64,000 nucleotides of DNA from Streptomyces sp. S4.7 (lineage in GTDB: Bacteria; Actinomycetota; Actinomycetes; Streptomycetales; Streptomycetaceae), in the NCBI RefSeq assembly GCF_010384365.1, contig NZ_CP048397.1, positions 744,001-808,000 of the forward strand. The letters run 5' to 3'. Positions 31,566 through 51,347 of the stretch are shown here, one piece after another. A model generated the notes under the pieces. That model was not told where the DNA came from. It saw only the letters and a list, made by a program, of their open reading frames with translations, and ran no database searches. The position numbers were made by a program, and so were the translations under genes. Each line of letters begins with the position of its first letter. Positions within the stretch are counted from its first letter, which is position 1.

Positions 31566-31611
31566 CGGACCACCACCCCCAGGGGGACGAGACGGAATCC
31601 TGCCACTCGGC

Positions 31612-32379: not shown

Positions 32380-32382
32380 CGG

Positions 32383-34657: not shown

Positions 34658-34985
34658 CGCGTCCCCCTGGGTCGTATCCCCTGCTCGACGAGACGCGCAG
34701 GGGTCGGCGGCATATTCGACACATCAGAGTGGACGCCTGTGCAAGGGTCGGCAATCGAAAGCATTTGCCACATATCTGAACGCGTAATTCTCAACTGGTC
34801 GGAACCGGGCAGTCCTTGTGGGCGTGGTGAGGCGTGTGTGAGGCGAGGCGACGAAAACTCCGACAAAACGGTCTGCTGGCGGATAGTTCGCGAGACTATT
34901 TGGCCAATGGATTGCTTTAAGTAATTGTCCTGAAATGGGCGTAGTAGGCAGATGTGGGCCCCGAGTGTCGGTTAAGCGGGTGATG
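34658..34985 (-). promoter_or_regulatory. Promoter region of the accessory NTPase operon
   Basis: About 330 bp without a gene. A hairpin with arms CCCCTGC (34678-34684) and GCAGGGG (34697-34703) lies 20-46 bp upstream of the operon start. The DNA from 34740 to 34930 is AT-richer than its neighbours. The right end abuts the truncated IS1380 element. Confidence 0.4.
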
Positions 34986-34986
34986 C

Positions 34987-36164
34987 ATGAGCGGCGAGCG
35001 GGGGCGTGCGGGCCATGGGTTTCGTTGCTCGGGCCGGAGCGCGGTGATCGCGATCGACCTCGACGGGGTGCTGGTGATCGCACACTCGGACAAGGAGGAC
35101 GCCGCACCGACGTGGAAGCGAACCCACGGCCACCACCCGCTGATGGGGTTCGTCGACCACGGACCGGGCGGCACGGGTGAACCGGTCGCGGCCCTGCTCA
35201 GGCCAGGCAACGCGGGAGCGAACACGGCCACCGACCACATCACCGCCGCTCAACTGGTTTTGGCCCAGCCACCGAAGAAGTACCGGCGCGGGCACCGGAC
35301 CCTGATCCGCACCGACTGCGCGGGCGGCACCCACGACTTCGTCGCCTGGCTCGCTCAGCGGGGACGGTGGCTGTCCTACTCGGTCGGCATGGTGATCACC
35401 GAGGCGATCCACCAGCATGTGCTGAAGGTTCCGGCATCGGCATGGACGGCGGCCGTCGAAGCGGACGGCGAGATCCGCGACGGCGCCTGGGTCGCTGAAC
35501 TCACCGGCGACGTTCTGGACGGCTGGCCCAAGGGCATACGGCTGATCGTCAGGAAGGAACGGCCGCACCCCGGGGCCCAGTTACGGCTCACGGATGCGGA
35601 CGGCATGCGGCTGACCCGCTTCGCCACCAACACCTTGGGCCAGCCGATCGCCGAGCTCGAGCTCCGTCACCGGCTGCGGGCGAGGGCCGAGGACCGCATC
35701 CGCGCCGCCCGGGCCACCGGCCTGCGCAACCTGCCCCTGCACCGCACGGCCCAGAACCGCATCTGGCTGGAGATCGTGCAGATCGCCCTCGACCTGCTGG
35801 CCTGGATGCCGATGCTCGCCCTGACCGGTAAGGCCAGGCTCTGGGAGCCCCGCCGACTACGGCTCCGCCTGTTCACCGCGGCCCGACAGCTCGTCACCAC
35901 CGGCCGCCGGCGAATCCTCCGCCTGGCCCGGCACTGGCCCTGGACCAGCCACATCACCGCAGCCCTCGAACGCCTCGCACTCCTGCCGAACCCCGGCTGA
36001 CCAGCCCGCCCCCGTCCCTACGAGAGACCCCTCCGGCCGGAGCAGTGGAACCCGGCGTCCACCCGAGACGACACTCGGGCCCTCAACCTGCCCCACCTCG
36101 ATCCACGGCACGAAGACGGGCCACCGACTCCGTCGGCGGCCCGTCACGCAAGATCGAGGCTAAC
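34987..36164 (+). mobile_element. IS1380-family remnant, 5'-truncated transposase plus right end
   Basis: The 337-residue frame (34987-36000) carries the C-terminal two thirds of an IS1380 DDE transposase: VIAIDLDGVLVIAHSDKEDA, HPLMGFVDHGPGGTGEP, RTDCAGGTHDF, WPKGIRLIVRKERPHPGA, and ELRHRLRARAEDRIRAARATG. The N-terminal 100 or so residues are missing and the first 18 codons are not family-like. The element runs to a right end near 36164 (acgcaagatcgaggctaac), shared with the second remnant at 39.0 kb. Confidence 0.85.
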
Positions 36165-36421
36165 GAGTGCTGCAGCTGAGGGTGGAGATGGGCTTCTGGC
36201 TCCTCGATGATGACCGTTGCGTGAAACGGGGCCGTGGAGAAGAAGGAGTCTGCCTCGGAAGCCGCCTCCGCTTGTGTTTGAGCCAGGTTCTCGAGCGCCT
36301 GCCATGCCTGCTCCTCCTCGGATGGCACTTCGCGCTCAAAGTCCCCGGTCGCGGCAGCCACACAGCGATCATCCCCATCGGATGCGCGCTCACCGACGAT
36401 GTGCGACGCTGCGAAGCGCGC
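36165..36421 (-). pseudogene. OLD/RecF-like AAA ATPase fragment cut by IS1380
   Basis: A minus-strand frame reads [16 protein letters not shown], then the Walker [18 protein letters not shown] and ends exactly at the IS1380 right end (36165). The [12 protein letters not shown] motif is typical of OLD-family and related ABC-type ATPases that pair with nuclease domains or work with defence genes. Only about 85 residues remain. The Walker A part and the nuclease part have been lost. Confidence 0.7.
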
Positions 36422-36772
36422 CTACTTCGTCTCGTTCGGGTGGCTCGTGTGCACCTGCTCCAGGAAGACCGTGCGCTCGTGGACGTAGAACCAGATGCGC
36501 GCGGTGCCCTTCGCAGTCGGTTTGTGCTGCCACCGCTCATGGGTCGCGCCGCCACGCTCGATGACGCCGAGCTCACCCTTGAGCCGATAGTTCGTCGGCG
36601 TCGTGGACAGTGGCGTCCGCGTGAGGAAGTCCCAGGTCTCCGTCATGGGGTTGCGGATCGTCGCAACGAGGTCGCGCCATCCCTTCTGCGCTTCGGCTGT
36701 GGCGAAACGGATCTCGTACTCGATCTTCTTCGGAGGGCGAGGAACCAGCTCGCCCTTCCTGGCGGCCGCCAC
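36422..36772 (-). CDS. RelE/ParE-like toxin
   Basis: The 116-residue protein from a GTG at 36772 has a RelE/YoeB-type compact fold: PPKKIEYEIRFATAEAQKGW, TRTPLSTTPTNYRLKGELG, WQHKPTAKGTARIWFYVHER and the terminal VFLEQVHTSHPNETK with conserved histidines. It is likely a ribosome-dependent mRNA endoribonuclease. It begins 2 bp after the antitoxin stop, so the pair is co-transcribed. Confidence 0.82.
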   Translation of the reverse strand: MAAARKGELVPRPPKKIEYEIRFATAEAQKGWRDLVATIRNPMTETWDFLTRTPLSTTPTNYRLKGELGVIERGGATHERWQHKPTAKGTARIWFYVHERTVFLEQVHTSHPNETK

Positions 36773-36774
36773 GG

Positions 36775-37239
36775 CTACGGACGCTCCACGGTCTGATCGT
36801 CGTCGAACCACTCCAGACCGGCGCTGCCGCTGCTGAGCCCGGCCGCGACGGCCGTGGCCGTCTCCTTCCAGGAGGTCAGCTCTGCGATCGCGAGGTGCGG
36901 CTGGTCGGTGGCGAACGACGCGCGCGCCGCATCGACGAGGTCCTGCGCGCAGGACTCCCGGTCGGCCGGCGACAGCGCGAGCATCCAAGGGAAGGCCTTG
37001 GACATCCGCTCGGCGAGCGAGCCGCGGTCGTCGAGGGTGACGGTGATGAGCTGCGCGGCAAAGTTCAGCAAGCGGGCACGACCCTCGGCCTCGCGCTGCG
37101 ACATCAGGACCAGAGCCTCGCCGTCGCGCCGGGTCACCGTCACGGGGTGGTCCTCGGCCTCGGCGAAGACCTCGGCGGAGTGCTTACTCAGGTCCGAGGA
37201 GCGCCGAGTCGCCACGGGGAGGTCTGCTGCTATGGTCAT
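36775..37239 (-). CDS. Phd/YefM-like antitoxin
   Basis: The 154-residue protein has a Phd/YefM-type N-terminal DNA-binding region (residues 10-75: RRSSDLSKHSAEVFAEAEDH, then PVTVTRRDGEALVLMSQREA) and a helical C-terminal extension that would bind the toxin. It is longer than a classical Phd. Antitoxin-first order and 2-bp spacing to a RelE-like toxin support a type II toxin-antitoxin module. Upstream direct repeats tattcgga (37250-37257 and 37261-37268) are a candidate autorepression operator. Confidence 0.8.
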   Translation of the reverse strand: MTIAADLPVATRRSSDLSKHSAEVFAEAEDHPVTVTRRDGEALVLMSQREAEGRARLLNFAAQLITVTLDDRGSLAERMSKAFPWMLALSPADRESCAQDLVDAARASFATDQPHLAIAELTSWKETATAVAAGLSSGSAGLEWFDDDQTVERP

Positions 37240-37249
37240 GGATCCATAG

Positions 37250-37268
37250 TATTCGGAACGTATTCGGA
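37250..37268. promoter_or_regulatory. Direct repeats upstream of the toxin-antitoxin pair
   Basis: tattcgga occurs at 37250-37257 and 37261-37268, 11 bp apart, directly before the antitoxin start at 37239 on the minus strand. Antitoxins of this type usually repress their own promoter. The operator role is inferred. Confidence 0.4.
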
Positions 37269-37539
37269 AGTCTAGGGGAGGCCGCAGAGTGCGTGCGCCA
37301 GACTCGACCTCCGGATGCGGTCCGATGCCAGATCTCAGCCTTCCTTGACGGCTGAGTCAGACCCGAACTCACAGCCGGTCGATCGTCGAGATGGGGCGCG
37401 CACTTACAGAGCTGCTTACCTTGCGCCTGCCGAAAAACTCATCCGTCCTGGTGGGGGCTGGTGTACGGGTGGTGTCGAGCGGGGGCGTCTGGGCGGGTGC
37501 TCTGGGCACCTGGTGGTCGCCCCGGCATGATGGCCGGTC
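37269..37539. other. Spacer without a recognisable gene
   Basis: I see no credible coding frame here. A small hairpin (ctcagcc at 37334-37340 with ggctgag at 37350-37356) is the only structure noticed. Confidence 0.4.
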
Positions 37540-37765
37540 GTGCTGCTGCGACTGGCCTATCTGGGTGTGACGAACGTGTTCGCCCTGCTGCGCCTTGCCG
37601 ATGAGCGGCCATGGCAAGGACGCCGAGATCCGCGCTCTTCGCCATCAGATCGGGGTACTCCACCGCGAGACGTCGTCGAGCCCGCCGTGAACGCCGGCCT
37701 CACCTTGCCTACCACAACGGCCGCACCGAAGGCGTCAACACCCGCACCAAAAGGATCATGAGACC
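37540..37765 (+). mobile_element. Fragments of an integrase-type and an ISL3-type transposase
   Basis: At 37540 a frame starts VLLRLAYLGVTNVFALLRL and continues, shifted, as MSGHGKDAEIRALRHQIGVL, which matches the N-terminus common to IS3/integrase-core transposases of Streptomyces. From about 37695 a different frame reads HLAYHNGRTEGVNTRTKRIM, the C-terminal end typical of ISL3 transposases. Both are short remnants. Confidence 0.55.
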
Positions 37766-37978
37766 GCAGCCGCACAGCGCACGGATGCCGATGCCCTGGC
37801 CCGAGGGCGCTTGGGTCCCCGGGGGGACCGGACGACGGGCCGGCGCTGCCGGAGCCCACGGAGCTGCCTCACTCCCCTGCCGGCCGTCGGAATGCATGCC
37901 GCGAATTGCCCCGCCCAGCGACGCCGCGATCCAGCATCACGGCCGTCGCCGTCGGGGATGTACACCTTGGCAAGGAGA

Positions 37979-38545
37979 TCACTGACAGTGAGGATGTGAC
38001 GTGGTGACGCTGCTGGTGGGTCTGACCCCTCGGCTGACAGTGAAGCCATCGCGCAACTGGCGCAGCACACTGCGCAGGCTCTTCCCCCGCAGCGCGTCGA
38101 TCTCGTCGAAGAACAGCACCAGCGGACGCGGACAGCTCCGCACCCACTCAGCCAGCCCCCGCGTGAGCCGGGACCCGGGCACCGCGTCGGGCCGGGAGGC
38201 GCAGGGCGCGAGCCCATCAGGAAGCCCAGCGGACTCCGCGGACCGCCGAATCGCCTCCAGCACCAGCAGCTCGGCCTGGCCGTAGTCCTCCCCGGCCACC
38301 TCCCCGCTCTCGCACGAGAAGTGCAGCGCCGCGTACACGCGAGTGGAGGCCATGCTGCCGGGCCAGGCCAGGACCGAAGCCGAAGCATGGATCAGCCGGA
38401 CGTCAGCCACCGTGGAGCACCTCGACCCCCTGAGCACGCCGCCCCGGCTGCCGACATCCCCGAACCACGAGCCGACGGCCTGAAGCCATTCCTCGGGCAC
38501 TGGAGCCCCTACAGCCCACGACACGCCGCCCGACTGAGGCTCCAC
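37979..38545 (-). pseudogene. AAA-like ATPase fragment
   Basis: A 188-codon frame reads YAALHFSCESGEVAGEDYGQ, EAIRRSAESAGLPDGL and the Walker B LVLFFDEIDALRGKSLRSV, which is the central part of an AAA-like ATPase common in actinobacterial mobile islands. The Walker A portion should lie upstream but is replaced by the IS1380 fragment, and the C-terminal region diverges after LRDGF. It is therefore truncated at both ends. Confidence 0.6.
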
Positions 38546-38570
38546 CCAGCGTCACGGAACGTCAGCATCG

Positions 38571-39001
38571 AAGGTTCCGGCCTCGGCCTGGACGCCGGCC
38601 GTCGAGGCGGACGGCGAGGTCCGGGACGAGGCCCGGGTCGCCGAGCTCACCGGCGACGTCCTGGACGGCTGGCCCAAGGGCATGCGGCTGATCGTCCGCA
38701 AGGAAAGACCTCATCCCGGGGCCCAGTTGAGGCTCACGGACGCGGACGGCATGCGGCTGACCTGTTTCGCGATCAACACCGTCGGCCGGCCGATTGCCGC
38801 TCGAACGACTCGCACTCCTGCCGAACCCCGGCTGACCAGCGGATCCACCCGTCCCTACAACAGCCCTTCCCCACCCGGAGCAGTGGAACCCGGCGCCACC
38901 CCGAGACGACACTCGGGCCCTCGCCCTGCCCGACCTCAGCCCAGAACACGAAAACGGTCCACCGACTCCGTCGGCGGACCGTCACGCAAGATCGAGGCTA
39001 A
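38571..39001 (+). mobile_element. Second IS1380 remnant with internal deletion
   Basis: Homologous to 35425-36164: it shares the VEADGEVRDEARVAELTGDV coding part and the right end (cgcaagatcgaggctaa). A deletion removes everything between PIA and the last LERLALLPNPG-like residues. The first IS5-type copy is inserted directly at its right end. Confidence 0.75.
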
Positions 39002-40050
39002 CGAGCTCGTGCATGGTTGGCGGTGAGACGCCGAGTCCTTGATCGTTGATCATGGTTGCGTGGTGGGGAACTCGGCTCGTGCACTGGTCATCAGCAACCG
39101 GCGGATCACGGGCCTGACGGCCGATGTGATCGCTGAACTCGTCGCCGAAGTGGGTCCGTTGTGGCACGAGCGCCACCAGGCCAGGCTTGCCTCCCGGCCG
39201 CGCAAGCGGGCCATGGGCGCCGGCGCGAAGCACCGGCTGGTGTTTGTCGACCGGCTGCTGGCCACTCTCGTCCATCTCCGTCACGGGACTACCCACGACG
39301 TGCTGGCCTGCTGGTTTGGCGTGGACCGCTCCACCATCACCCGGGCCATCAACGAGGTGCGGCCCCTGCTCGCCGAGCGAGGGTGCACCATCAGCCCCGA
39401 CGTACGGCTGCGGACTCTGGCCGAAGTCGTCGACCATCTCGGCGCGACAGGGAAGACCGGCATCATCGACGGCACCGAGATCCGGGTCCGGCGGCCGGCC
39501 CAAGGACGCAAGGACCGGGACAAGTTCATCTCCGGCAAGAACAAGCAGAACGCCGTCAAATCCATGGTGGTCACGGACGGCGAAGGACGCATGCTGTGGT
39601 GCAGCCCGACCAAGCCCGGGAGTTGCGCGGACATCACCCACGCACGCCAGTTGGGGCTGGTGGAGCTCCTGGCCGGTGGGCCTGCGGTCGAGATCCTCGC
39701 CGATGCCGGCTACCAGGGGCTCGGCGCACAGACCGGCGGACGCGTGGTGACGCCACCGCACCGCAAGTTCAAGAAGAACGCCCCGGACTGGTACGAGGAT
39801 ATGTACGAGCGCCAGCGCAAGGCGCACTCCTCACGCCGTATCCGGGTCGAGCACGGCATCGCACATCTCAAGAACTGGCGGGCACTCGCACGCCACCTCG
39901 GCCGCCGCGAGCACATGAGCGACACGGTCCAGGCCATCGCCGGCCTGCTGTCTCATCAGCAGGGCGCAGACCTGACATCGGCACGGCAGATGTGACCCCC
40001 GGGCCCCACCGAAGTCCTCGACGTCTCACCGCCAACCATGCACGAGCTCG
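39002..40050 (+). mobile_element. IS5-type insertion sequence, copy 1 (1049 bp)
   Basis: Perfect inverted ends start CGAGCTCGTGCATGGTTGGC (39002 rightward; 40050 leftward) and extend 29 bp. The element is flanked by a 3-bp target duplication TAA (38999-39001 and 40051-40053). It carries one transposase. The TNA target matches the IS1031-like group of the IS5 family. It is identical in length and inferred protein to the inverted copy at 40924-41972. Confidence 0.9.
39039..39995 (+). CDS. IS5-family DDE transposase (copy 1)
   Basis: The 318-residue transposase has a helix-turn-helix region (HDVLACWFGVDRSTITRAIN, residues 80-99) and the DDE triad in TGIIDGTEIRV, VEILADAGYQG and RIRVEHGIAHLKN. 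It appears full length and intact. A start at the ATG at 39039 gives the same protein as copy 2; a start at the GTG at 39063 is possible. Confidence 0.92.
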   Translation: MIVDHGCVVGNSARALVISNRRITGLTADVIAELVAEVGPLWHERHQARLASRPRKRAMGAGAKHRLVFVDRLLATLVHLRHGTTHDVLACWFGVDRSTITRAINEVRPLLAERGCTISPDVRLRTLAEVVDHLGATGKTGIIDGTEIRVRRPAQGRKDRDKFISGKNKQNAVKSMVVTDGEGRMLWCSPTKPGSCADITHARQLGLVELLAGGPAVEILADAGYQGLGAQTGGRVVTPPHRKFKKNAPDWYEDMYERQRKAHSSRRIRVEHGIAHLKNWRALARHLGRREHMSDTVQAIAGLLSHQQGADLTSARQM

Positions 40051-40053
40051 TAA

Positions 40054-40920
40054 GCGTTGTCCCGTAAATGATCTACGACGTGTTTGTTGACCTGCCTGCT
40101 TCTTCGTCAGCCGGCGAGGGTGAGGTTGTGCAGGCGGGCGATGCCGAGCATGGCGTGGTGGACGCCGTCGCCTTTGAGTCGGCAGTCGCGAAGGATCTTC
40201 CAGGTCTTCATCCGGGCGAAGGTGTGTTCGACGCGGGCACGGACCTTGCGGTGGGAGGTGTTGTGTTCCTCTTTCCAGGCGGGGAGTTCGGTCTGGCCGG
40301 GTTCGCGGCGGTGCGGGATTATCAGGCCGGTGCCCCTGTAGCCGCCGTCCGCGATCACCGTGGCGCGGCCGACGGCGTCCTTCGCGCCGGACAACTCCCA
40401 TGCCTTGCAGTCGTTGCGGTTGCCCGGCAACGGCCGTCCAACCGCTACGACCAGCCGGGTATCGGCGTCGATGACGACCTGGTGGTTGGTCGAGTACCGA
40501 TAGTTCTTCGACTGCTCTGCGACCGTGTGGTCGCGGGTGGGGACGAGGGTGCCGTCAACGATCAGCACGGCGTCACGGCGGAACCGTTTACGTGGCTGCA
40601 GTGTCAGTGCCGGGCCGAGGTGATTGACGATCCGGTCGGCCGCGGACTTGGACACCCCGAACAACGGCGCCAGTTGGCGCAGGGTCAGGTTGGTCCGCCA
40701 GTACGCGGCGACCAGCAGGACTCGGTCCTCCAGAGGCAGGCTCCACGGCCGGCCCTTGCGGACCGGATCGGTGCCTTCGCGCCGCAACGCTGTGATCATC
40801 TTGCCGAACCGACGCGGGCTCAGCCCAGTGAACGGGGCTATCCAGGACGGCTCCGACGCCGTGATCACACCAGACACGGCAAGATCATCTCACTCGTGAC
40901 CGGCAGTTACGGGACAGCCC
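40054..40920 (-). mobile_element. IS5-family element between the two IS5-type copies (about 867 bp)
   Basis: The ends carry imperfect inverted repeats containing TGTCCCGTAA (40059-40068; reverse complement 40907-40916). The flanks are TAA on the left and TTA on the right, so an identical target duplication is not visible, perhaps because its own flanks were later remodelled by the two outer elements. Confidence 0.7.
40107..40877 (-). CDS. IS5-family transposase (IS112-like)
   Basis: The 256-residue DDE transposase has an N-terminal helix-turn-helix (NLTLRQLAPLFGVSKSAADR) and catalytic residues in DAVLIVDGTLVPTRD, TVIADGGYRGTG and ARVEHTFARMKTWKILR. It appears complete and potentially active. 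Confidence 0.88.
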   Translation of the reverse strand: MSGVITASEPSWIAPFTGLSPRRFGKMITALRREGTDPVRKGRPWSLPLEDRVLLVAAYWRTNLTLRQLAPLFGVSKSAADRIVNHLGPALTLQPRKRFRRDAVLIVDGTLVPTRDHTVAEQSKNYRYSTNHQVVIDADTRLVVAVGRPLPGNRNDCKAWELSGAKDAVGRATVIADGGYRGTGLIIPHRREPGQTELPAWKEEHNTSHRKVRARVEHTFARMKTWKILRDCRLKGDGVHHAMLGIARLHNLTLAG

Positions 40921-40923
40921 TTA

Positions 40924-41972
40924 CGAGCTCGTGCATGGTTGGCGGTGAGACGTCGAGGACTTCGGTGGGGCCCGGGGGTCACATCTGCCGTGCCGATGTC
41001 AGGTCTGCGCCCTGCTGATGAGACAGCAGGCCGGCGATGGCCTGGACCGTGTCGCTCATGTGCTCGCGGCGGCCGAGGTGGCGTGCGAGTGCCCGCCAGT
41101 TCTTGAGATGTGCGATGCCGTGCTCGACCCGGATACGGCGTGAGGAGTGCGCCTTGCGCTGGCGCTCGTACATATCCTCGTACCAGTCCGGGGCGTTCTT
41201 CTTGAACTTGCGGTGCGGTGGCGTCACCACGCGTCCGCCGGTCTGTGCGCCGAGCCCCTGGTAGCCGGCATCGGCGAGGATCTCGACCGCAGGCCCACCG
41301 GCCAGGAGCTCCACCAGCCCCAACTGGCGTGCGTGGGTGATGTCCGCGCAACTCCCGGGCTTGGTCGGGCTGCACCACAGCATGCGTCCTTCGCCGTCCG
41401 TGACCACCATGGATTTGACGGCGTTCTGCTTGTTCTTGCCGGAGATGAACTTGTCCCGGTCCTTGCGTCCTTGGGCCGGCCGCCGGACCCGGATCTCGGT
41501 GCCGTCGATGATGCCGGTCTTCCCTGTCGCGCCGAGATGGTCGACGACTTCGGCCAGAGTCCGCAGCCGTACGTCGGGGCTGATGGTGCACCCTCGCTCG
41601 GCGAGCAGGGGCCGCACCTCGTTGATGGCCCGGGTGATGGTGGAGCGGTCCACGCCAAACCAGCAGGCCAGCACGTCGTGGGTAGTCCCGTGACGGAGAT
41701 GGACGAGAGTGGCCAGCAGCCGGTCGACAAACACCAGCCGGTGCTTCGCGCCGGCGCCCATGGCCCGCTTGCGCGGCCGGGAGGCAAGCCTGGCCTGGTG
41801 GCGCTCGTGCCACAACGGACCCACTTCGGCGACGAGTTCAGCGATCACATCGGCCGTCAGGCCCGTGATCCGCCGGTTGCTGATGACCAGTGCACGAGCC
41901 GAGTTCCCCACCACGCAACCATGATCAACGATCAAGGACTCGGCGTCTCACCGCCAACCATGCACGAGCTCG
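40924..41972 (-). mobile_element. IS5-type insertion sequence, copy 2, inverted (1049 bp)
   Basis: Same ends and length as copy 1 but in opposite orientation, flanked by its own 3-bp duplication TTA (40921-40923 and 41973-41975). The different duplications (TAA and TTA) show two separate insertions rather than one duplicated block. Confidence 0.9.
40979..41935 (-). CDS. IS5-family DDE transposase (copy 2)
   Basis: The 318-residue protein is identical to the copy 1 transposase, with the same DDE motifs. The identity indicates recent transposition or gene conversion. Confidence 0.92.
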   Translation of the reverse strand: MIVDHGCVVGNSARALVISNRRITGLTADVIAELVAEVGPLWHERHQARLASRPRKRAMGAGAKHRLVFVDRLLATLVHLRHGTTHDVLACWFGVDRSTITRAINEVRPLLAERGCTISPDVRLRTLAEVVDHLGATGKTGIIDGTEIRVRRPAQGRKDRDKFISGKNKQNAVKSMVVTDGEGRMLWCSPTKPGSCADITHARQLGLVELLAGGPAVEILADAGYQGLGAQTGGRVVTPPHRKFKKNAPDWYEDMYERQRKAHSSRRIRVEHGIAHLKNWRALARHLGRREHMSDTVQAIAGLLSHQQGADLTSARQM

Positions 41973-42022
41973 TTAGCGCTCTCTCACTGGACTTGAAATC
42001 TTCCGTTCCGTGAGGTGCTGAC

Positions 42023-42952
42023 CTACACGGCCTGATACGTCCTGACCCAGCGGTAGTAGATGTTGTTGATGCTGGGGTCTGCGAGTTCCGCGTCCGTGGG
42101 TTCGATACCTCGGTCGACGCGCCACTGATGACTCTCGGTGTTGAGGATCAGATGCATTGGCTGGTCGAAGAACCGGCTCCGGGGGTCCCTGAGGTCGTTC
42201 GACCGGTTCAGCCGGCGCACCAACCTGCCGTTGAAGTAGAAATCGAATTCGGTGGCGCTTATCCAGTGCACGCCGTAGCGGTGGAATCCATTCCGAAGAA
42301 GAGGTTGCCCGGCGCCGTCCCCAAACACCTGCCCAGTCTCACCATTGTACCCGTAGCTCCCATCTGCGAAATACCCCTTCTGGCTTCTCGCCAGTTCAGT
42401 GAAGGGGTTCCGCTGGAATATGTGGTAGGCGGTGTTCATGTGCTTTCCGTGCAATGACTCGTTGCCGTAGCATTCGATCACGTCAATCTCGTTGACGTCG
42501 TCTCTGCTCAGGAGCCAGAAATTCGATGAGAGCTTCAGCCCGCTCACACGCATGAGTACTTCGGTGTAGAGAGGGTACTCGACTGGGGTGCGGGAGGTCA
42601 CGTAGCCGCAGTAGACCCTCCCGTCCGGCGCCCTGCGGCCCTCGACGATGAGATTTCCGTCAGCCACCCAGGAATGGCGCGCACTGTAGAGGCTGTTGGC
42701 CGGGCCCGACCAGTCATCCTTGTGCTGGTCCAGCCATCTGCCCCTGAAGGTTTGAGGCTTGCCGGTGTAGTTGAAGTCGTCCGAATGGCTGGGGAGAAGC
42801 TGCCAGGACCTGTTTCCGCCAGGGGCGGCCGGCACGGGGTACTGTTCCCATTCGAGGTCTGCGGCATGAGCGGCGGGTGCGGGACCCGCGAGCCCCGCAC
42901 CCGCTCCGAGTGCGACGGCACTCCACTTGATGAGATCACGTCGGTTGACCAC
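42023..42952 (-). CDS. dagA: Extracellular GH16 beta-agarase DagA
   Basis: The 309-residue protein starts at a GTG at 42952 with an AAGGAG ribosome site 8 bp upstream. The signal VVNRRDLIKWSAVALGAGAG has a twin-arginine motif, so it is exported by Tat, and cleavage probably follows AHA-A. The GH16 catalytic motif NEIDVIECYG gives the nucleophile and acid/base glutamates (residues 155 and 160 from this start). It endo-hydrolyses beta-1,4 bonds of agarose to neoagaro-oligosaccharides. From memory it is nearly identical to S. coelicolor DagA. It lies 47 bp from the IS5-type element. Confidence 0.96.
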   Translation of the reverse strand: MVNRRDLIKWSAVALGAGAGLAGPAPAAHAADLEWEQYPVPAAPGGNRSWQLLPSHSDDFNYTGKPQTFRGRWLDQHKDDWSGPANSLYSARHSWVADGNLIVEGRRAPDGRVYCGYVTSRTPVEYPLYTEVLMRVSGLKLSSNFWLLSRDDVNEIDVIECYGNESLHGKHMNTAYHIFQRNPFTELARSQKGYFADGSYGYNGETGQVFGDGAGQPLLRNGFHRYGVHWISATEFDFYFNGRLVRRLNRSNDLRDPRSRFFDQPMHLILNTESHQWRVDRGIEPTDAELADPSINNIYYRWVRTYQAV

Positions 42953-43163
42953 GATCGTTCTCCTTCTTCGATTCCCGCCTGGCTGAAGAATCTTATATTT
43001 GGCGATGACTTCCGCAGCCCCTGGGCGCCAAAATTCGAGAGCTCGCGTGCGTGCAAAAAGTTCCGGAACGCCCACGTGGCACGATCATTCCACGGCGCAG
43101 GAGGAGCTAGGCTCCAGGAGGTAAGTTTCTGGGCTTTCGCTCGCTTGATCATTCAATGAGGTG

Positions 43164-43171
43164 AACCGGTT
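43164..43171. promoter_or_regulatory. AACCGGTT palindrome (DagR box 1) upstream of dagA
   Basis: gtgAACCGGTTtccc lies 212 bp upstream of the dagA start, within the range of its multiple promoters. The same octamer occurs upstream of four other agar-utilisation units. It is a candidate DagR (LacI-type) operator. Confidence 0.65.
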
Positions 43172-43442
43172 TCCCGAATGCTACAGCGGAGTGTCGCAGG
43201 GTGACAATCGGTACGGCTGCAGTAGTTCCCAGGATTTCGTGCCGTGCCCGACTGTGATCCAGCGGCGACCTCGGTCACTCGCCCCGTCGCGCCGGTCACG
43301 ATTCATCAAGCCGGCCTTCCTGTGCATGGCATCCCCAGGGCCCGCCGTGGCAGGTGAGGATGCCCCGCCGAAGCCCCGACGCATCGTCCCCTCGTCTCTG
43401 GAGTCCGACTGAAGTCTCTACCGAACCCGTACCGAACCTGGA

Positions 43443-43569
43443 ACGGTTCACTCCGGCTGATCCCGAGCTCCCGGGCGGCCTCGGTCACCGTCCGGCCCGA
43501 CGACCGCACGAGCTCGATTGCGTCCCGCTTGTACTCCTCCAAGTACCGCTTCGTGTACTTGCTTCCCAC
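43443..43569 (-). mobile_element. IS3-family OrfA N-terminal remnant
   Basis: About 42 codons from a GTG at 43569 match the helix-turn-helix start of IS3-family OrfA (VGSKYTKRYLEEYKRDAIEL; SSGRTVTEAARELGIS). The frame then loses similarity, so it is a broken copy. Confidence 0.65.
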
Positions 43570-43953
43570 CTGGCACTGCTTCCTCTGGGCTCTCACATCT
43601 CAGTCTCCAGGTGTCCACGATCACGGGAAGGCTTCACACGACCACCTCTCCCCCAGCGCCGACACCCACCACGACGACTGCCCGGCCAGAGCGTGTCGTG
43701 GCCTCCTGCGGACGTGGACAGACGAGTCGGAATGCCGGCAGACAGGAGCCTTCGACCGGATCCACCGGGTCCGGAGAGGCGGAGCTGCCTGCCGCCGGCG
43801 AACTCGCCTGGTCGCTCGGCATCGGGGGAGGTGACGACGAGTACGCCTGGCGGTTGCTGATCCCCGCCGGCACCAGTGCCGTCAGAGGGCAAGGTTGGGC
43901 CGCCGTCGGGATTCCATGGTCACGACTGGCCCGCGAGCGGTTCACATGCTCTG

Positions 43954-44733
43954 TCACGTCGTCGCCCGCCGGGGACCGCTGAACATGCGGCACGGCCACG
44001 CCTCCAGAGCAGGCAGGGAGCCAAGGGGCACAGGCAACTCCTGTTGCGGCGCCCATCCGAGGTCGCGCGTTGCGTTTTCGACGTCCCAGGCCCGTGCACC
44101 GTGGATCGAGACTCCGTGGTAGACACCCGACCCGGAGGCGGACAGGGCTTGTCGCACCAACGCGGCCGCATCCGCGTCACCCAGCCAGCCGTCTGCCAGT
44201 TCGCGATGTGTCAGGGGCCAGCCGGTGAGCCCTAGCCGCAGGCAAGAAGCCCCAGCGCCCGTAGCATCGTGATAGAGTGCGGCAGCCACCTCCATCGCCG
44301 CCTTGCCGGTGCCGTAGTGGCAGCACGGGCGCGCAGGCCGATCGGTTGCAACGGGAACGTGCCCTTCTCGGTAGGCTCCGCCGGCGGCGTGCACCGAGCT
44401 GGCCAGCACCACGGTGGGCACACTCTCCTCAGCGGCGGCGTCGAGCGTGTTCTGTGCCAGTGTCAGGTTGTCGATCGCGACGGGCCACGGCGACCACGGA
44501 CTGGCGTTTGCGGCGAGATGGAGCACCGCGTCGGCGCCCCGCATCGCCCGTCGCAGAGGTCCCGGGTCGCGCATGTCGCTGATCGTGATTCGCTCAGGTG
44601 AGAATGAAGGGTCTCCCGCAGACCTGTCAATGACATGAATACGCCAGTTCTTGGCCAGCGGAGGTACAACTACTCTCGCGACCCGGCCGGAGCCCCCTGT
44701 TACCACCAGCCGCCGGGACTCAGTACGTCGCAT
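43954..44733 (-). CDS. NAD(P)-dependent epimerase/uronate-dehydrogenase-like SDR
   Basis: The 259-residue extended SDR has the N-terminal glycine motif VVTGGSGRVARVVV, a DAVLHLAANAS segment, SSVHAAGG and the catalytic YGTGKAAME, which matches YxxxK. It resembles uronate dehydrogenase and sugar-nucleotide epimerases. Its position between dagA and the KDPG-type genes suggests oxidation of a sugar or sugar acid from agar. The substrate is unknown. It starts at the ATG at 44733. Confidence 0.75.
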   Translation of the reverse strand: MRRTESRRLVVTGGSGRVARVVVPPLAKNWRIHVIDRSAGDPSFSPERITISDMRDPGPLRRAMRGADAVLHLAANASPWSPWPVAIDNLTLAQNTLDAAAEESVPTVVLASSVHAAGGAYREGHVPVATDRPARPCCHYGTGKAAMEVAAALYHDATGAGASCLRLGLTGWPLTHRELADGWLGDADAAALVRQALSASGSGVYHGVSIHGARAWDVENATRDLGWAPQQELPVPLGSLPALEAWPCRMFSGPRRATT

Positions 44734-45006
44734 CGAATGCTCCTCATTGCATCAGCAAGCGTCGACGGAGACCCGAAGTCTCCAGGCTCTCCCGGGACCG
44801 AGGCTCAGGCAGAAAGACGAAAGGTTCCAGTCGGACACACAGACCGTCTTCTCCTCTCTTCTCGATCGCCCTCACGGCTCGCCCGGCGCGTTGGCTGCTG
44901 CTCGGCCCAGCCGCAACCGTCATCCAGCCGAAGGCACAACCACCAGCGCGCGCCCACGCCACGCCGCGCCGCGTGGAAGTGCCTTCCGCCCTGTCAGACA
45001 GGGTGG

Positions 45007-45654
45007 TCATGCTCTCGCCGTGCGCTCGGCCTTCTCTCGGGCCACCGCAGTGCGCAACTGCCGCACCCTGCCCTCGATCGAGCGAGGGTCTCCTGAAGTC
45101 AGTTCGCTGCCGATTCCCACAGCCACCGCACCGGCGCGGATGTAGTCGGGCGCCAGCTCGAGGGGCACACCACCGGTGGGAACCAGAGCGAGCTGTGGGA
45201 AGGGAGCAAGCAGATGCCTCACGACGTCCGCACCGTAGACGCTCGCGGGGAACAACTTGACGAAGTCGGCGCCTTCCTCAATCGCCGTGACGGCCTCGGT
45301 GGGGCTCAGTGCGCCCGCCAGGGTCGCCATGCCGTAGCGATGTGCGGCTCGGAGGACGGTGCGGTTCACCGTGGGAGATACGACGAATCGTGCGCCGGCG
45401 AGCTCGCTCATGCGCACGGTGGCTTCGTCCAGGACGGTTCCGACACCGATCAGAGCTTCGTGCGCCGGCCAGCCGTGGCTCAGGTCCGCGACGACATCAA
45501 GGGCCCCGGGAGTGGTCATCGACACCTCCACGACGCGCTGACCGGCTTTCAACAGGGCCAATGCCTGCTCACGGGCGAGATCAGGGCTCTGTGAGCGGAC
45601 CACAGCGACGACCCCATCTCGGGCGATGCGGCTGGCAGTCTCGTAACGCGGCAT
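45007..45654 (-). CDS. KDPG/KDPGal aldolase
   Basis: The 215-residue class I aldolase has GDVVAVVR-like (VVAVVRSQSPDLAREQALAL), EVSMTTPGALDV, the Schiff-base lysine in GADFVKLFPASVYGADVVRH and VPTGGVPLE. It cleaves 2-keto-3-deoxy-6-phosphogluconate or -galactonate to pyruvate and glyceraldehyde-3-phosphate. The ATG at 45654 has a GGAGGA ribosome site. It follows the kinase by 38 bp and completes the sugar-acid branch of the operon. Confidence 0.93.
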   Translation of the reverse strand: MPRYETASRIARDGVVAVVRSQSPDLAREQALALLKAGQRVVEVSMTTPGALDVVADLSHGWPAHEALIGVGTVLDEATVRMSELAGARFVVSPTVNRTVLRAAHRYGMATLAGALSPTEAVTAIEEGADFVKLFPASVYGADVVRHLLAPFPQLALVPTGGVPLELAPDYIRAGAVAVGIGSELTSGDPRSIEGRVRQLRTAVAREKAERTARA

Positions 45655-45692
45655 GACTCCTCCGACGACGGTGTCCGTGGGGTGCTTGGTAT

Positions 45693-46694
45693 TCAGGGGT
45701 GTGGGCTCGCCTCGGCAGGGGAAGCGTGTCCGGGCCATTCGTTGCCGTGCTTCGCCCGTGCTACCAGCGCTGCCGGGGCGGTAGGCAGGTCGGCGACGTC
45801 CGAGAGCGATGTCATCGCGGCACCGGCCAGCAGGTGCCCGAGTCGCAGGCAACCGGCATCGTCAAGACCCACGAGGGCTCCGTGAATCCATCCTGCGGCG
45901 AACGCGTCGCCTGCACCGACGGGTTCGACCACGTCGACCGGCAGCGCGGGCACCGCGGTCCGACGGCCTCCGCGGAAGGCGACGGCCTCACTGCCACCGT
46001 CCTTCACCACGACGACGTCCGGACTCGGGAGGTGGTCCCGAACCGCTCCCGCGGTGCGAGAAGCCCACAGGGTCTGCGCCTCGTCGAGGCCGACGAAAAC
46101 CACATCGCAACGATCGGCGATGGCCATGAGCGGCTGTGCCGCAGCGTCGCGGGCGGGCCAGAGGGACGGGCGGTAGTTGACGTCGAAACTGACACTCGCT
46201 CCCGTGTCACCCGCGAGCTCAATCAGCGAGATGACCGCTTCACGACAGTTCTCCGACAAGGCCGGCGTCACACCGGTCAGGTGGATCCAGCGCGGACGCA
46301 CCGCAGCGATCCGTTCCGCGTAGTCTCCGTCCATGAGCGTGGCGGCCGAGCCGGACCGGTAATAGTAGATGTCGGACCCTTCGGGCGCGGGGTCCTTGAA
46401 GTAGACACCCGTTCTGCGTCCCGGCATCGTACGCGCGAGCTTCGTCACCACGCCGTGCCGACGGAGTTCGCCAAGGACACGGAGACCCATCGGATCGTCT
46501 CCGACGAATCCGGCCCAGAACGCCGCTGTGCCCAGCCTCGAGAGGGAGACCGCGACGTTCGACTCCGCGCCCGCCACCCCGAAGGCACAGGCGGACGCCT
46601 CGTATAGACGAAGGCCGTCGATCGGCACGATCTGCGCCATCGTCTCGCCCAGACAGACGACGGCAGGCCCTCCTTCCACGACAGGCCGGGTCAT
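45693..46694 (-). CDS. PfkB-family 2-keto-3-deoxy sugar-acid kinase
   Basis: The 333-residue ribokinase-family protein has GAESNVAVSLSRLGTAAFWA near the N-terminus and the PfkB signature EPVGAGDAFAAGWIHG, with the catalytic aspartate in GAGD. It phosphorylates 2-keto-3-deoxygluconate or -galactonate. It sits between the dehydratase and the aldolase. The start is the ATG at 46694. Confidence 0.9.
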   Translation of the reverse strand: MTRPVVEGGPAVVCLGETMAQIVPIDGLRLYEASACAFGVAGAESNVAVSLSRLGTAAFWAGFVGDDPMGLRVLGELRRHGVVTKLARTMPGRRTGVYFKDPAPEGSDIYYYRSGSAATLMDGDYAERIAAVRPRWIHLTGVTPALSENCREAVISLIELAGDTGASVSFDVNYRPSLWPARDAAAQPLMAIADRCDVVFVGLDEAQTLWASRTAGAVRDHLPSPDVVVVKDGGSEAVAFRGGRRTAVPALPVDVVEPVGAGDAFAAGWIHGALVGLDDAGCLRLGHLLAGAAMTSLSDVADLPTAPAALVARAKHGNEWPGHASPAEASPHP

Positions 46695-46821
46695 CGGACT
46701 TCCGCCTCGTGCATGGTCACGGACGTTCCGACGGCTCCCTCGTCCGGCCGGTGCCCGGATTTCCTGGTCCCCATTCTGTCCCGCCTCTTCGAGGTGTCGA
46801 GTGCTTCGCTGTCGGCCCGCG

Positions 46822-47955
46822 TCACCAGTCACCGTGCGATCCGTCCTGGTGGGTGAAGCGGGGTGTGGTCCAGTCGCCGGCGTAGACACGGTCCATGAGC
46901 TGTGCTTCGTCGACTTCGATGCCCAGGCCCGGCCCGGTGGGTACGGCTATGTGTCCGTTCTCGACCGAGAACGGCACCGCCAGGATCCCGGCGCCGAGAT
47001 CGGCCCCGTCGTCCAGTGCCAGATACTCCTGGATCAGGAAATTGGGTGTGCTGGCAGCCACTTGAAGGCAGGCGGCCAGCGAGACGGGCCCCAGGGGGTT
47101 GTGCGGGGCGAGCGCGACGTAGTGGGCCTCGGCCATGGCGGCGATCCGACGGACTTCGCTGATCCCGCCGGCATGGCAGAGGTCGGGCTGGACGACGGAC
47201 ACGGCCCGGCGTTCGAGGAGTTCCCGGAAGCCCCACTTGGTGAAGATCCGTTCGCCGGCCGCGATCGGCACGTTCGTCGCCCTGGCGATCTCCGCCAGGG
47301 CGTCGACGTTCTCCGGGAGACACGGTTCCTCGATGAAAAGGGGGCCCAGCGGACTCAGGCGTTCTGCCAGGCGTCGGGCCATGGCAGGTGACGTGCGGCC
47401 GTGGAAGTCGAGCGCGATGTCGAAGGCGGGACCCACAGCCTCGCGAACCGCAGCGACCCGGGCAACCTGGCGGTCGACGTACGCCACCGAGTCGAGCGCC
47501 CTTACCGGTCCGTCCAACCCGAACTTGATCGCCGTCATTCCCGCGGACCGTGAGCGCCGCGCGACGTGGGCGAACTCCTCGTCCGTGACACCCCGCGCGT
47601 GCCCGTACATGCGCACCGAATCACGGACAGCGCCGCCCAGCAATGCGTGGACGGGGACTCCCAGGTCCCTGGCGGTGATGTCCCACAGCGCCTGGTCGAT
47701 TCCACTGATCGCACTGCACAGGACGGCTCCGCCGCGGTAGAAGGCCCCACGGTACATTCCCTGCCAGTGGTGTTCGATCCGTCTGGGGTCACGCCCTGCG
47801 AGGTATTCCGCGAGGTCGCCGATCATGCGCTCGACGACCCTCGCCTGCCCTTCCACAACGGCCTCACCCCATCCGATGACACCCTTGTCGGTCTCCACCG
47901 CCACGAACAACCATCTGGGGCGAACGTGGAAGGTGCGGACCTTCACTATTCTCAC
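46822..47955 (-). CDS. MR/MLE-family galactonate-type dehydratase
   Basis: The 377-residue enolase-superfamily enzyme starts at a GTG at 47955 with a GAGGAG site. Metal ligands and acid/base residues resemble D-galactonate dehydratase: DFHGR (Asp and His), IEEP, AGER and LCHAGGISE followed by APHNPLGP (the second His). It dehydrates a sugar acid to a 2-keto-3-deoxy acid. In this cluster it would process galactonate from the D-galactose released from agar. Confidence 0.9.
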   Translation of the reverse strand: MRIVKVRTFHVRPRWLFVAVETDKGVIGWGEAVVEGQARVVERMIGDLAEYLAGRDPRRIEHHWQGMYRGAFYRGGAVLCSAISGIDQALWDITARDLGVPVHALLGGAVRDSVRMYGHARGVTDEEFAHVARRSRSAGMTAIKFGLDGPVRALDSVAYVDRQVARVAAVREAVGPAFDIALDFHGRTSPAMARRLAERLSPLGPLFIEEPCLPENVDALAEIARATNVPIAAGERIFTKWGFRELLERRAVSVVQPDLCHAGGISEVRRIAAMAEAHYVALAPHNPLGPVSLAACLQVAASTPNFLIQEYLALDDGADLGAGILAVPFSVENGHIAVPTGPGLGIEVDEAQLMDRVYAGDWTTPRFTHQDGSHGDW

Positions 47956-48165
47956 CGCGAATCTCCTCTTGGGGCGATATTCCTCGCCCTTTGACGACAA
48001 GCTGTAGATTCCTGAGCGGTGCGCCCGGCGGGTAGCCCGCGTACCTGCATCTGCCGCTCGGTGTCCCCGTCCCACGCGACCTTCCGGACGTGGCGGTGGT
48101 GCCGCGCTCCCCGGCCCGCGTGGACGGCGCCTCGACTCACGTCACCGAACTCCGGCGCCCAGCGC

Positions 48166-48921
48166 CTACCGGGCAAGCCAACCCCCGTCGACAGCGAGGA
48201 CCTGGCCATGGACGTATGCCGCCGCGCGGGAAGCCAGGAAGACCGCCACGTCGCCCACATCGTCCGGGCCTCCCCATCGGCCGGCCGGGATGCGGACCGA
48301 GAGCTGCTCCAGCCGGACGGGGTCCGCAAGCAGTGCCGTGTTCATCTCTGTGGCCATGTATCCGGGCGCTATCGCGTTGACGTTGACTCCCCGGCCCGCC
48401 CATTCATTGCACAGAGCCTTGGTGAGCTGCGCGACGGCACCCTTGCTCGCCGCGTACGCGGCCACGGTGAATCCGCCCTGAAAGCTGAGCAGTGATGCGA
48501 GGTTGATGATCTTACCCTCACCGCGCTGGATCATGGGCCGCCCGAAGATCTGGCACAGCTGGACCACCGAGCGCAGGTTGACGTCGATCACCGCGTCCCA
48601 GGCATCGAGCGGGAAGTCCTCGGCAGGATGCCGGACCTGCGCTCCGGCGTTGTTGACCAGGATGTCGACCTGGTGACCGGCGAGCACTTCGGCCCCCGCG
48701 GCCGCGACGCCTTCGCGGTCCCTGAGATCGACGCCGACGTGACTCACCGAGCGTCCGAGATCTGCGGCTGTCCGCCTCAGCCGGTCGTCCAGGGCGCTCC
48801 GGCTGAGCACGACCACATCGGCGCCCGCGGTCAACAACGCGCGGCTGATACCCAGTCCGAGGCCGCGTCCTCCGCCCGTGACGACGGCGGTACGGCCCGT
48901 GAGGTCGAATGGGGAGATCAT
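48166..48921 (-). CDS. KduD-like SDR oxidoreductase
   Basis: The 251-residue classical SDR has VVTGGGRGLGLGISRALL (TGxxxGxG site), VDILVNNAGAQV, the YAASKGAV active site and AIAPGYMATEMN. It is closest in style to 2-dehydro-3-deoxygluconate 5-dehydrogenase (KduD). In the agar pathway such an enzyme could convert 2-keto-3-deoxy-L-galactonate to the 2,5-diketo acid or reduce that intermediate. The ATG at 48921 has GGGAGG and overlaps the preceding stop by 4 bp. Confidence 0.87.
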   Translation of the reverse strand: MISPFDLTGRTAVVTGGGRGLGLGISRALLTAGADVVVLSRSALDDRLRRTAADLGRSVSHVGVDLRDREGVAAAGAEVLAGHQVDILVNNAGAQVRHPAEDFPLDAWDAVIDVNLRSVVQLCQIFGRPMIQRGEGKIINLASLLSFQGGFTVAAYAASKGAVAQLTKALCNEWAGRGVNVNAIAPGYMATEMNTALLADPVRLEQLSVRIPAGRWGGPDDVGDVAVFLASRAAAYVHGQVLAVDGGWLAR

Positions 48922-49955
48922 GAGACTGCCTCCCTGTGTGTGCTGAGGAGAACTTTCAGTCCGTCCGAGCCTGTGGCCGCTGCGTCGAAGGCGTCGGAAA
49001 TCCGGTCGAACCCGTAGACGGACACTGGAATCCTGTCCAGCCCCAGCGCGTTGTGCGCTATCAGGTCGATCGCGGTGCGGACGTCTTCGCGCGTGTAGAC
49101 CCGCACGCCGACCACGGACTGCTCTTTGAAGCACACGGCCTGAAGGTCGACCGCGGCTGGTTCCTTGTACACACCGACGATGACTACGCGGCCGAGGACA
49201 CGGGTGACATCGGCGAGTTCGGCGGCCACAGCGGGGTGAGCCGCGCTGTCGAACGTCGTGTCGGCTCCGTCGCCCTGCGAGAGCTCCGCGACCGTATCCC
49301 GCAGCTGTGCACCGTCAGGGACCGCGATCAGCCCCATGTCGCTCACCACCGCACGACGGCGGGCATTCGGCTCGGCGACCACTACGTGCGATGCCCCCTC
49401 GTGCCGGGCCACCAGTGCGGTAAGTATGCCCATCGGTCCCGCGCCGAAGACAGCCACCACATCCCCGGCTTCCATCCCCGAGCGGCGGACCGCGTGCACG
49501 GCGACCGCCAACGGCTCGGTCAACGCCGCCTGCGTGGGTTCGACGCCCGCCGGAACCTGATGCAGCACCGACGGCGGCAGCGCCACGAACTGCGCGGCGC
49601 CTCCTGGCGCGTCGATACCGAACAGACCCAGCCGGGCGCACACATGGCTGTGGCCTTCCCGGCACGCACGGCATTCTCCGCAGGAGATCAGCGGTTCGGC
49701 GACCACCAGCGTCCCTTCCGGAGGCCCGCCCGGCGCCGTGACCTCGACCCAGCCCGAGATCTCGTGACCGAGGATCAGCCCCCGTCGTGCCCGCGGGTGC
49801 TTGCCGCGCACGATCCCCAGGTCCGTGCCACATATCCCGGTGCAGGCGACCCGGACCAGCGCCCATCCCGGCGGCACCTCGGGCAGCGACACCTCCTCCA
49901 CGCGGACATCGTTGACGCCGGCCCACACCACGGCGCTCATGCCGCCGCCCGTCAT
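48918..49955 (-). CDS. Zinc-dependent medium-chain dehydrogenase
   Basis: The 345-residue MDR protein has the catalytic-zinc motif CTGICGTDLG and GHEISG, the structural-zinc cysteines CGECRACREGHSHVCARLG, and the NAD site VAVFGAGPMGILTA. It is probably a sugar-alcohol or keto-sugar-acid dehydrogenase of the 2,5-diketo-3-deoxygalactonate step. The ATG at 49955 overlaps the upstream stop (ATGA) and follows a GGAGG site. Confidence 0.88.
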   Translation of the reverse strand: MTGGGMSAVVWAGVNDVRVEEVSLPEVPPGWALVRVACTGICGTDLGIVRGKHPRARRGLILGHEISGWVEVTAPGGPPEGTLVVAEPLISCGECRACREGHSHVCARLGLFGIDAPGGAAQFVALPPSVLHQVPAGVEPTQAALTEPLAVAVHAVRRSGMEAGDVVAVFGAGPMGILTALVARHEGASHVVVAEPNARRRAVVSDMGLIAVPDGAQLRDTVAELSQGDGADTTFDSAAHPAVAAELADVTRVLGRVVIVGVYKEPAAVDLQAVCFKEQSVVGVRVYTREDVRTAIDLIAHNALGLDRIPVSVYGFDRISDAFDAAATGSDGLKVLLSTHREAVS

Positions 49956-50974
49956 CGCCGGGCCTCCGACCGCTGCGCAGCCGCCGGCAGTGCCTCGGGA
50001 TTCACCACGCCCCGGGGCATGCGCCCAGCGCAGGCGTCGACGACATTCTCCACGGTGCGCCTCTTGAGCTCGGCGTAGGACTCCTCGCTGTACCAGGCGA
50101 GATGCGGCGTGAGTACGACGTTGTCGAACGACGTCAGCGGGTGATCCCGCGGGACCGGCTCGATCTCGTGGACGTCGATGCCCGCTCCTGCGACGGCGCC
50201 GCGCTCGAGGGCGTCGACGAGAGCACCCGTATCGATCACCCCGCCTCGGCTCGTGTTGACAACGATCGCGTCGGAACGCATCCGCGCGAACGCGTCGGCG
50301 CCCAGCAGACCGCGCGTCTGCTCCGTGAGGGGCGTATGCACGGAGACGACCTGTGCCCGCTCGAGCAGCTCGTCGAGGCCGACGGAGCGAAAACCGCGGA
50401 ACGTCTGCGAGTCCGGGTCTGCGGCACTGTCATAAACGATGACTTCATAGCCGAGGCCTGCCGCCTTGCGTGCGGTGGCCGCGCCGATAAGGCCCATCCC
50501 GACGACTCCGAAGACTCGTTGGCCCACTTGGTACAGGGGACGCACCGCAGGGAGGTCGAACGAGCCGGCGCGCACGCCCCGGTCGAGCCGGGGGATGCCC
50601 CGCGCGACGGACAGGGCAAGCCCTATCGCGTGGTCCGATACCGCCTCCGTGCCGTAGTCGGGCACGTTGCACACGAGAATGCCACGCCGCGTCGCCGCCT
50701 CCACGTCCACCGAGTCGACACCGACGCCGTAGCGCCCGATCACCTTGAGGCGTGGGAGACGGTCCATCACCTGCGCCGTGATCGCCGCGTACTGCACCAC
50801 GATCGCGTCGGCGCCGGCACAATTGACCACCAGAGCGTCGGCGTCCCGGGACTGGGTGACGAGGAGTTGCCCCCCTGCGGAGGCGACTACGTCTCGTTCT
50901 ATGTCGAAGGAATCATGGTCGCACTCCGTGATGGCCACCAGCGGGCCACCGCCTGTCGTTCTCATAGCCGTCAT
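49952..50974 (-). CDS. D-isomer-specific 2-hydroxyacid dehydrogenase
   Basis: The 340-residue protein has FGVVGMGLIGAATARKAAGLG for NAD(P) binding, VVNTSRGGVIDTGAL with the catalytic arginine, and the terminal TPHLAWYSEES with the catalytic histidine. It is the first gene of the operon that runs to the aldolase, and a DagR box lies about 360 bp upstream. I chose the ATG at 50974, with GGAGA 10-13 bp upstream; a GTG at 50986 is possible. Confidence 0.9.
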   Translation of the reverse strand: MTAMRTTGGGPLVAITECDHDSFDIERDVVASAGGQLLVTQSRDADALVVNCAGADAIVVQYAAITAQVMDRLPRLKVIGRYGVGVDSVDVEAATRRGILVCNVPDYGTEAVSDHAIGLALSVARGIPRLDRGVRAGSFDLPAVRPLYQVGQRVFGVVGMGLIGAATARKAAGLGYEVIVYDSAADPDSQTFRGFRSVGLDELLERAQVVSVHTPLTEQTRGLLGADAFARMRSDAIVVNTSRGGVIDTGALVDALERGAVAGAGIDVHEIEPVPRDHPLTSFDNVVLTPHLAWYSEESYAELKRRTVENVVDACAGRMPRGVVNPEALPAAAQRSEARR

Positions 50975-51346: not shown

Positions 51347-51347
51347 T

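Follow-up and report, generated by a model that had tools for sequence, protein, structure and literature searches.

A fixed PAISt-type island at uppP as the probable vehicle of agar catabolism in Streptomyces sp. S4.7

How does a complete agar-degrading pathway come to lie in a Streptomyces chromosome directly beside a group of insertion sequences? The question is raised by a stretch of 64,000 bp from Streptomyces sp. S4.7 (genome of 7.94 Mb in 3 contigs; C1:744001-808000, i.e., positions 744,001 to 808,000 of NZ_CP048397.1), hereafter called the window. An initial annotation had taken the arrangement as a sign of acquisition by transfer, with the IS elements as vehicle or boundary. Much of what it described is indeed there: the section to which it drew attention, 41973-43170, starts exactly at an IS end, the region from 30.6 to 42 kb next to uppP contains mobile elements (an IS5-type composite, an IS1380 transposase and an IS1380 fragment) and a complete catabolic locus, the 23.6-kb dag locus, follows the IS end. 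The annotation also named uppP as the neighboring core gene; it is adjacent, but it turned out to be the attachment site itself.

The dag locus spans 42023-65597 (23,575 bp). It starts with dagA, encoding a GH16 beta-agarase (minus strand; PF00722, E 5.2e-7), for which the gene call gives 42023-42952, while the open frame extends to 43075. Catabolic genes assigned with Pfam follow on the minus strand at 43954-61178 in the order epimerase-like protein, KDPG aldolase, PfkB kinase, enolase-superfamily protein, three dehydrogenases, GH2, a second enolase-superfamily protein (361 aa), GH43-like protein, two permeases, a binding protein and a LacI regulator. On the plus strand lie the gene for an aldehyde dehydrogenase of 492 aa, the counterpart of SCO3486 (61340-62818; PF00171; the published primers have 0 and 1 mismatch), and dagB, encoding an agarase with an Agarase_CBM domain (PF17992), whose called 5′ part occupies 63261-64000 of the window and whose 3′ end lies beyond it at 65597 (L010:1261-3597). 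Primers published for SCO3480 and SCO3486, four in all, fit the dag locus with 0 or 1 mismatch each. In the gap that separates dagA from the gene after it, the minus strand at 43438-43600 resembles, by eye, a remnant of an IS3-type OrfA.

The locus is rare. Among 392 genomes of the genus, dagA and dagB were found in the genome under study only, and the same holds for dagA among 394 genomes of the family, a draw that overlaps the first. A scan across genomes of 84,980 species, of a search type that reaches close relatives, retrieved only Streptomyces sp. SM1, and a search of plasmids with dagA gave six records, all below 60% identity and none from Streptomyces. An earlier study likewise lists SCO3480 homologues with 98–99% identity only in Streptomyces sp. 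SM1 and S4.7 (PMC9706016).

The acquired DNA is delimited not by IS ends but by duplicated 3′ ends of uppP, at 30460 and 81108. uppP, also known as bacA (PF02673, “BacA”), was identified at 29717-30589 on the plus strand with NCBIfam and Pfam models, and its last ~120 bp are derived from the element. A direct repeat of 42 bp with one mismatch marks both borders: the left attachment site at 30460-30501 (plus strand), with the palindrome TTCATGAA at 30461-30468 inside uppP, and its partner outside the window at 81108-81149 in extended coordinates (L010:19108-19149), within an orphan uppP 3′ end of 139 bp (81108-81246). Both palindromes, at 30461 and 81109, are intact, and the 142 kb examined contain a single further TTCATGAA. 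The island is thus 50.6 kb long, of which 30460-64000 lie in the window, with its right end at ~81149 (C1:825149). The related genome G344 has the exact empty site: the counterparts of window positions 26389-30600 (94.4% identity) and 81108-91778 (94.8%) are contiguous there, with an overlap of ~139 bp. In addition, the body of uppP is 95.6% identical to that of G344, whereas identity falls to 74.8% at the left 3′ end (last 119 bp) and amounts to 96.6% at the orphan right 3′ end. This contrast, together with the empty site, is the signature of a site-specific insertion into the end of a gene. A tRNA gene as attachment site was not found in the window. As to base composition, which the initial annotation had proposed to compare, GC is 68.2% in the island and 72.2% and 70.0% in the flanks; the tetranucleotide profile (0.80–0.90 in the island, 0.83–0.94 outside) is not informative.

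Some other features of the island ends deserve mention. Near the right end (L010:17963-18535) lies a gene for a putative Uma2-type endonuclease that matches the PADLOC candidate PDC-S03 (E 6e-15). On the left, a weak match to Phd/YefM antitoxins at 36775-37239 (E 5.7e-6, below the Pfam cut-off) is next to a 116-aa frame at 36422-36772; the two are perhaps a toxin-antitoxin pair. Where collinearity of the right flank with G344 ends (window 91778), that genome has a weak PF00589 fragment (L057 ~5181-5303; G344:C1:7046181-7046303), perhaps another insertion.

SM1, although available only as a draft assembly, provides the comparison that points to a recent transfer of the dag block. There too the block adjoins the strain's own uppP, and five collinear island blocks are 99.46% identical between the two strains over 36,116 bp, but four flanking blocks only 79.7% over 4,330 bp (these means exclude two inverted blocks within the island and, in the flanks, matches shorter than 500 bp). 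The same contrast is seen at fourfold-degenerate sites, which were compared for six dag genes and three flanking genes: uppP and two neighbors differ at 38, 45 and 38% of these sites, dagA at 0.7, the GH2 gene at 0.3, the cycloisomerase gene at 0, the GH43-like gene at 0.5, the LacI gene at 4.2 and dagB at 1.9%. Taken together, the empty site in G344, the identity contrast with SM1 and the rarity of dagA (1 of the 392 genus genomes) strongly support acquisition of the dag block by transfer, and this part of the initial annotation holds. In the SM1 dag island, the right palindrome is damaged. Behind its right border, SM1 contig C857 (L024) carries at ~56184-57706 a segment that resembles the 3′ end of SM1's own uppP and the DNA downstream of it (88% over 319 bp), as if a second element were present in tandem.

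Which enzyme could have inserted the island? The Pfam recombinase models PF00589 and PF00239 have no match inside it, but 16 and 3 elsewhere in the genome, and PF00589 found nothing at the uppP islands of ten related genomes in the stretches examined, apart from the weak G344 fragment near 7046181. An island devoid of an integrase was considered and dropped, since open frames at the right end of related islands revealed one, which was confirmed with PHROGs. The right-end stretch is conserved and gave matches (E up to 1e-10) in 58 of the 392 genus genomes, many of which match solely via an unrelated repeat of ~70 bp (query 70-144) and are not counted as islands. In 24 of the 30 loci listed, our own genome included, a C-terminal piece of uppP is no more than 100 bp away from the conserved right end, and 4 of the 14 loci whose frames were read individually have an open frame of 454–488 codons that ends there. 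Five aligned integrases have R210, R368, H391 and Y400 in common, and a PHROGs integrase family matches the frames of all four relatives scanned (E 4e-17 to 2e-20). The Pfam integrase model misses all four, one of which has a weak arm-binding domain, and the integrase alignment, used for a profile search of the PDB, gave no match; the assignment is therefore based on PHROGs and the motifs.

In the island itself, only a remnant of this integrase is left in front of the right border. It corresponds to residues 354-449 of the reference and has a histidine in place of the catalytic tyrosine. The integrase of the dag island is dead in both carriers, S4.7 and SM1, and both show this exchange of Tyr for His. 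Apart from the remnant, our own genome has one match at E 1e-5, a 29%-identical stretch of a different integrase. A full-length integrase was present in 6 of 26 loci compared (L084, L085, L094, L097, L101 and L113); in the others it is shortened, broken or undetectable. SM1 has a full-length integrase frame, 66% identical, on another contig (C596), where it adjoins another C-terminal piece of uppP.

Islands at uppP are indeed not confined to the two dag carriers. In 15 of 21 genomes, which had been chosen for an orphan uppP piece already seen (so that its presence in 21 of 21 is by construction and only linkage and strand are new), the full uppP and the orphan share a contig and a strand, and the orphan lies downstream at a distance of 14.6 to 480 kb; in the remaining six they are on different contigs. 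One genome, G226, has two orphans. Of 26 right junctions, 21 have an unaltered TTCATGAA palindrome; in the other five, which include that of the SM1 dag island, it is changed. The largest distances, ~480 kb from uppP to the orphan 3′ end, were seen in two complete or near-complete chromosomes (G090:C1:718496-1194569 and G284:C1:9157104-9636950). G160 and G358 carry uppP islands without dag genes, and both share sequence with the island of S4.7. Its left segment (30590-37660) has no match in SM1, and three pieces of it are 97–99.6% identical to the G160 island. At 38030-38335 (minus strand) lies a fragment of an AAA-ATPase gene, residues 64-165, that is 93% identical to the protein of G358; in SM1, two AAA-ATPase fragments flank the dag block. 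The gene is intact in related uppP islands, and in G376, G333, G226, G358, G290, G220 and G296 it adjoins the integrase remnant, although the loci extend only 1.5 kb past the match and the ATPase genes there are seen in part. The G160-like left end and the scattered ATPase fragments show that uppP islands recombine with one another. Since the two dag carriers differ in their left ends, the island is to be regarded as a mosaic and not as the product of one clean transfer.

The AAA-ATPase itself was seen at full length as a protein of 527 aa (L061:3654-5237, minus strand); in several uppP islands its gene adjoins the integrase remnant. PADLOC gave one weak match only for it (E 0.00078). By eye, its C-terminal part looks like a PD-(D/E)XK nuclease. 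Being conserved, the ATPase may have a role in maintenance or transfer of the islands. In six genomes (G376, G333, G226, G358, G290 and G296) the right end starts at the same position, the integrase is cut at about the same codon and the ATPase gene adjoins; the ATPases of the other five are 94.6–97.6% identical to that of G358, and the uppP genes of these five (G376, G333, G226, G290 and G296) are 79–89% identical to that of our genome. An integrase-dead lineage common to several species suggests mobilization in trans. It is conceivable, though less likely than not, that such a lineage circulates among Streptomyces species with the help of the integrase of related elements and that its cargoes include the dag locus.

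The reading that we favor, with a probability of roughly 0.88, is that the dag locus is the cargo of a PAISt-type uppP island that integrated site-specifically and is now fixed. A tyrosine integrase of the IntSt kind, as encoded at the right end of intact relatives, would join a circular element to uppP; the element would supply a replacement 3′ end, by which uppP stays whole, and the old 3′ end of the host would be pushed to the far border. Because the integrase is broken here, the integration event is read from the traces it left. An IntSt-type enzyme for this particular integration, a circular intermediate and conjugative transfer are presumed from these traces and from the relatives, as would be any mobilization in trans. 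With a C-terminal remnant and a histidine at the position of the catalytic tyrosine, the island is expected to be immobile, except where some related integrase could act on it in trans.

How the dag genes entered the island is a separate matter, and here the older IS elements have to be considered. According to a two-step scenario, they first moved the dag cassette into a uppP island, and transfer between species followed with this island as the carrier. This is compatible with site-specific integration at uppP, and we regard it as a possibility somewhat short of an even chance. There is an IS1380 fragment on the dagA side (plus strand, about 38570-39000, up to 39005), 86–87% identical to the IS1380 copy in the left segment and present in SM1 as well, and an IS3-type OrfA on the dagB side; in SM1, a frame with an HTH_Tnp_1 domain (32439-32729) is located just past dagB, where the identity breaks off at 66009. 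Moreover, S. coelicolor is reported to have a dag cluster of the same size, 23.6 kb, flanked by transposase genes (PMC9706016) on the genomic island GI-2 (PMC1934918), with its bacA free (PMC4057263). On the other hand, the fragments belong to different IS families, and no IS was seen with copies to the left as well as to the right of the dag locus. The IS1380 repeats, i.e., the fragment and the transposase gene at 34987-36000 (plus strand; NCBIfam, above the cut-off) in the left segment, are both left of dagA. A role of the older fragments as vehicle or boundary is unproven.

Homologous exchange of chromosomal DNA around uppP, in place of site-specific recombination, could also have brought in the island. 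It would do without an integrase, which is dead in both carriers with the identical Tyr to His change, and uppP islands do recombine with one another, as the G160-like left 7 kb illustrate. Such an exchange should have left imported flanks, but outside the repeats the flanks of S4.7 are sister-like on both sides right up to the 42-bp core, and we consider this route improbable.

The element that catches the eye beside dagA is the late IS composite at 39001-41973 (2,973 bp). It consists of two inverted IS-A copies of 1,074 bp, 100% complementary, around a different IS5-type element with a second IS5-type transposase (40107-40868); both transposases match NCBIfam IS5 models below the curated cut-offs. 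The copy next to dagA is the right arm and ends at 41973, 49 bases from the dagA stop; the distance of 47 bp given in the initial annotation is correct when counted after the 2-bp TA target duplication (38999-39000 and 41974-41975). A second composite of three IS is found at C1:6520548-6523538 (L119:2548-5538), with the outer IS-A copies turned the opposite way relative to the middle element. For the composite beside dagA as the carrier of the locus, or as the limit of the acquired DNA, only its position speaks, and both ideas are highly improbable. In SM1 (L009, NZ_NEUB01001033.1), the equivalent of window 37661-39000 is joined directly to that of 41974 onward at an uninterrupted site with a single TA, with 99.8% identity on the left and 99.7% on the right, so identity continues on the far side of the supposed edge. 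From this clean site it follows that the dag block already had its present form when the composite arrived. Among the matches listed, IS-A copies within the island are found left of dagA only, none on the dagB side. A composite transposon carrying the dag locus was likewise rejected, as no copies of the same IS were found on both sides of the cargo. SM1 represents a distant Streptomyces with the locus in the same place and free of the composite, albeit with the older IS1380 fragment; as far as the IS5 composite is concerned, this refutes the claim of an IS vehicle, not the claim of transfer.

Finally, an ancestral dag locus that was lost from most Streptomyces would agree with its rarity, but the contrast at fourfold-degenerate sites to SM1 and the empty site in G344 make this explanation hardly credible.

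Placing the dag locus on an island at uppP gives a rare trait of soil Streptomyces, growth on agar, a physical vehicle of a type that has so far been studied mainly for virulence genes of potato scab. It also sets right an easy error, namely to take a conspicuous IS beside a catabolic locus for its carrier. The spread of agar catabolism among soil actinomycetes becomes testable, since the element has defined ends and its excision and reintegration at TTCATGAA can be looked for. Neither islands at bacA nor the dag locus on GI-2 are new; the dag cargo at the uppP site is a new member of a known group. Our search, which did not cover most subscription papers, gave no publication in which the dag locus is connected with the bacA site.

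Integrase-less elements that are mobilized in trans are known as CIMEs and IMEs. The dag island resembles them in that the attachment sites are kept and the integrase is lost; mobilization in trans would be hypothetical here.

The dag locus of S4.7 has the same gene set as that of S. coelicolor (SCO3471-3487), the same size (23,575 bp versus 23.6 kb) and the enzymes of 361 and 492 aa. They are set apart by location, judged from the published description: dagA of S. coelicolor is reported at another chromosomal place, on GI-2 (SCO3437-3506, 75 kb, with a 61-bp repeat and five transposon-related genes; PMC1934918). Closer with respect to the site are the bacA islands of strains WI04-05A/B, which carry genes for sugar transport and catabolism (PMC10711302) and thus also have a non-virulence sugar cargo; agar genes are not mentioned there, and “agarase” occurs 0 times.

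The closest counterpart is PAISt of Streptomyces turgidiscabies, as described in PMC4057263. Its integration site is TTCATGAA, within the 3′ end of bacA; it leaves a 141-bp bacA duplication at attR with intSt at that end, and moves into S. coelicolor, whose bacA is free to take IntSt plasmids. The dag island shares the insertion into the 3′ end of bacA/uppP, as seen from the empty site and the junction identities, the presence of TTCATGAA at both ends (30461 and 81109), the duplicated 3′ end at the far border (139 bp in the dag island, 141 or 138 bp in the PAISt group) and a tyrosine integrase gene at that border which is missed by Pfam. IntSt and the integrases described here also agree in size, motif layout and silence in Pfam, IntSt being likened by its published description. 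The cargo differs, with virulence genes there and agar catabolism here, as does the size: PAISt is reported to have 674 kb, with modules of 105 and 569 kb, compared to 50.6 kb. The recombinase at the far border of PAISt is intact, whereas here only a dead remnant is left. For this, too, there are precedents in the same source: the fixed homologues PAISs1 and PAISa1 of S. scabies and S. acidiscabies have an eroded intSt, like the C-terminal remnant found here, and the integrase remnant at the internal site of PAISt has Tyr407 changed to His (PMC4057263). In light of these homologues, the dag island would be a fixed, not an active, member of the PAISt group.
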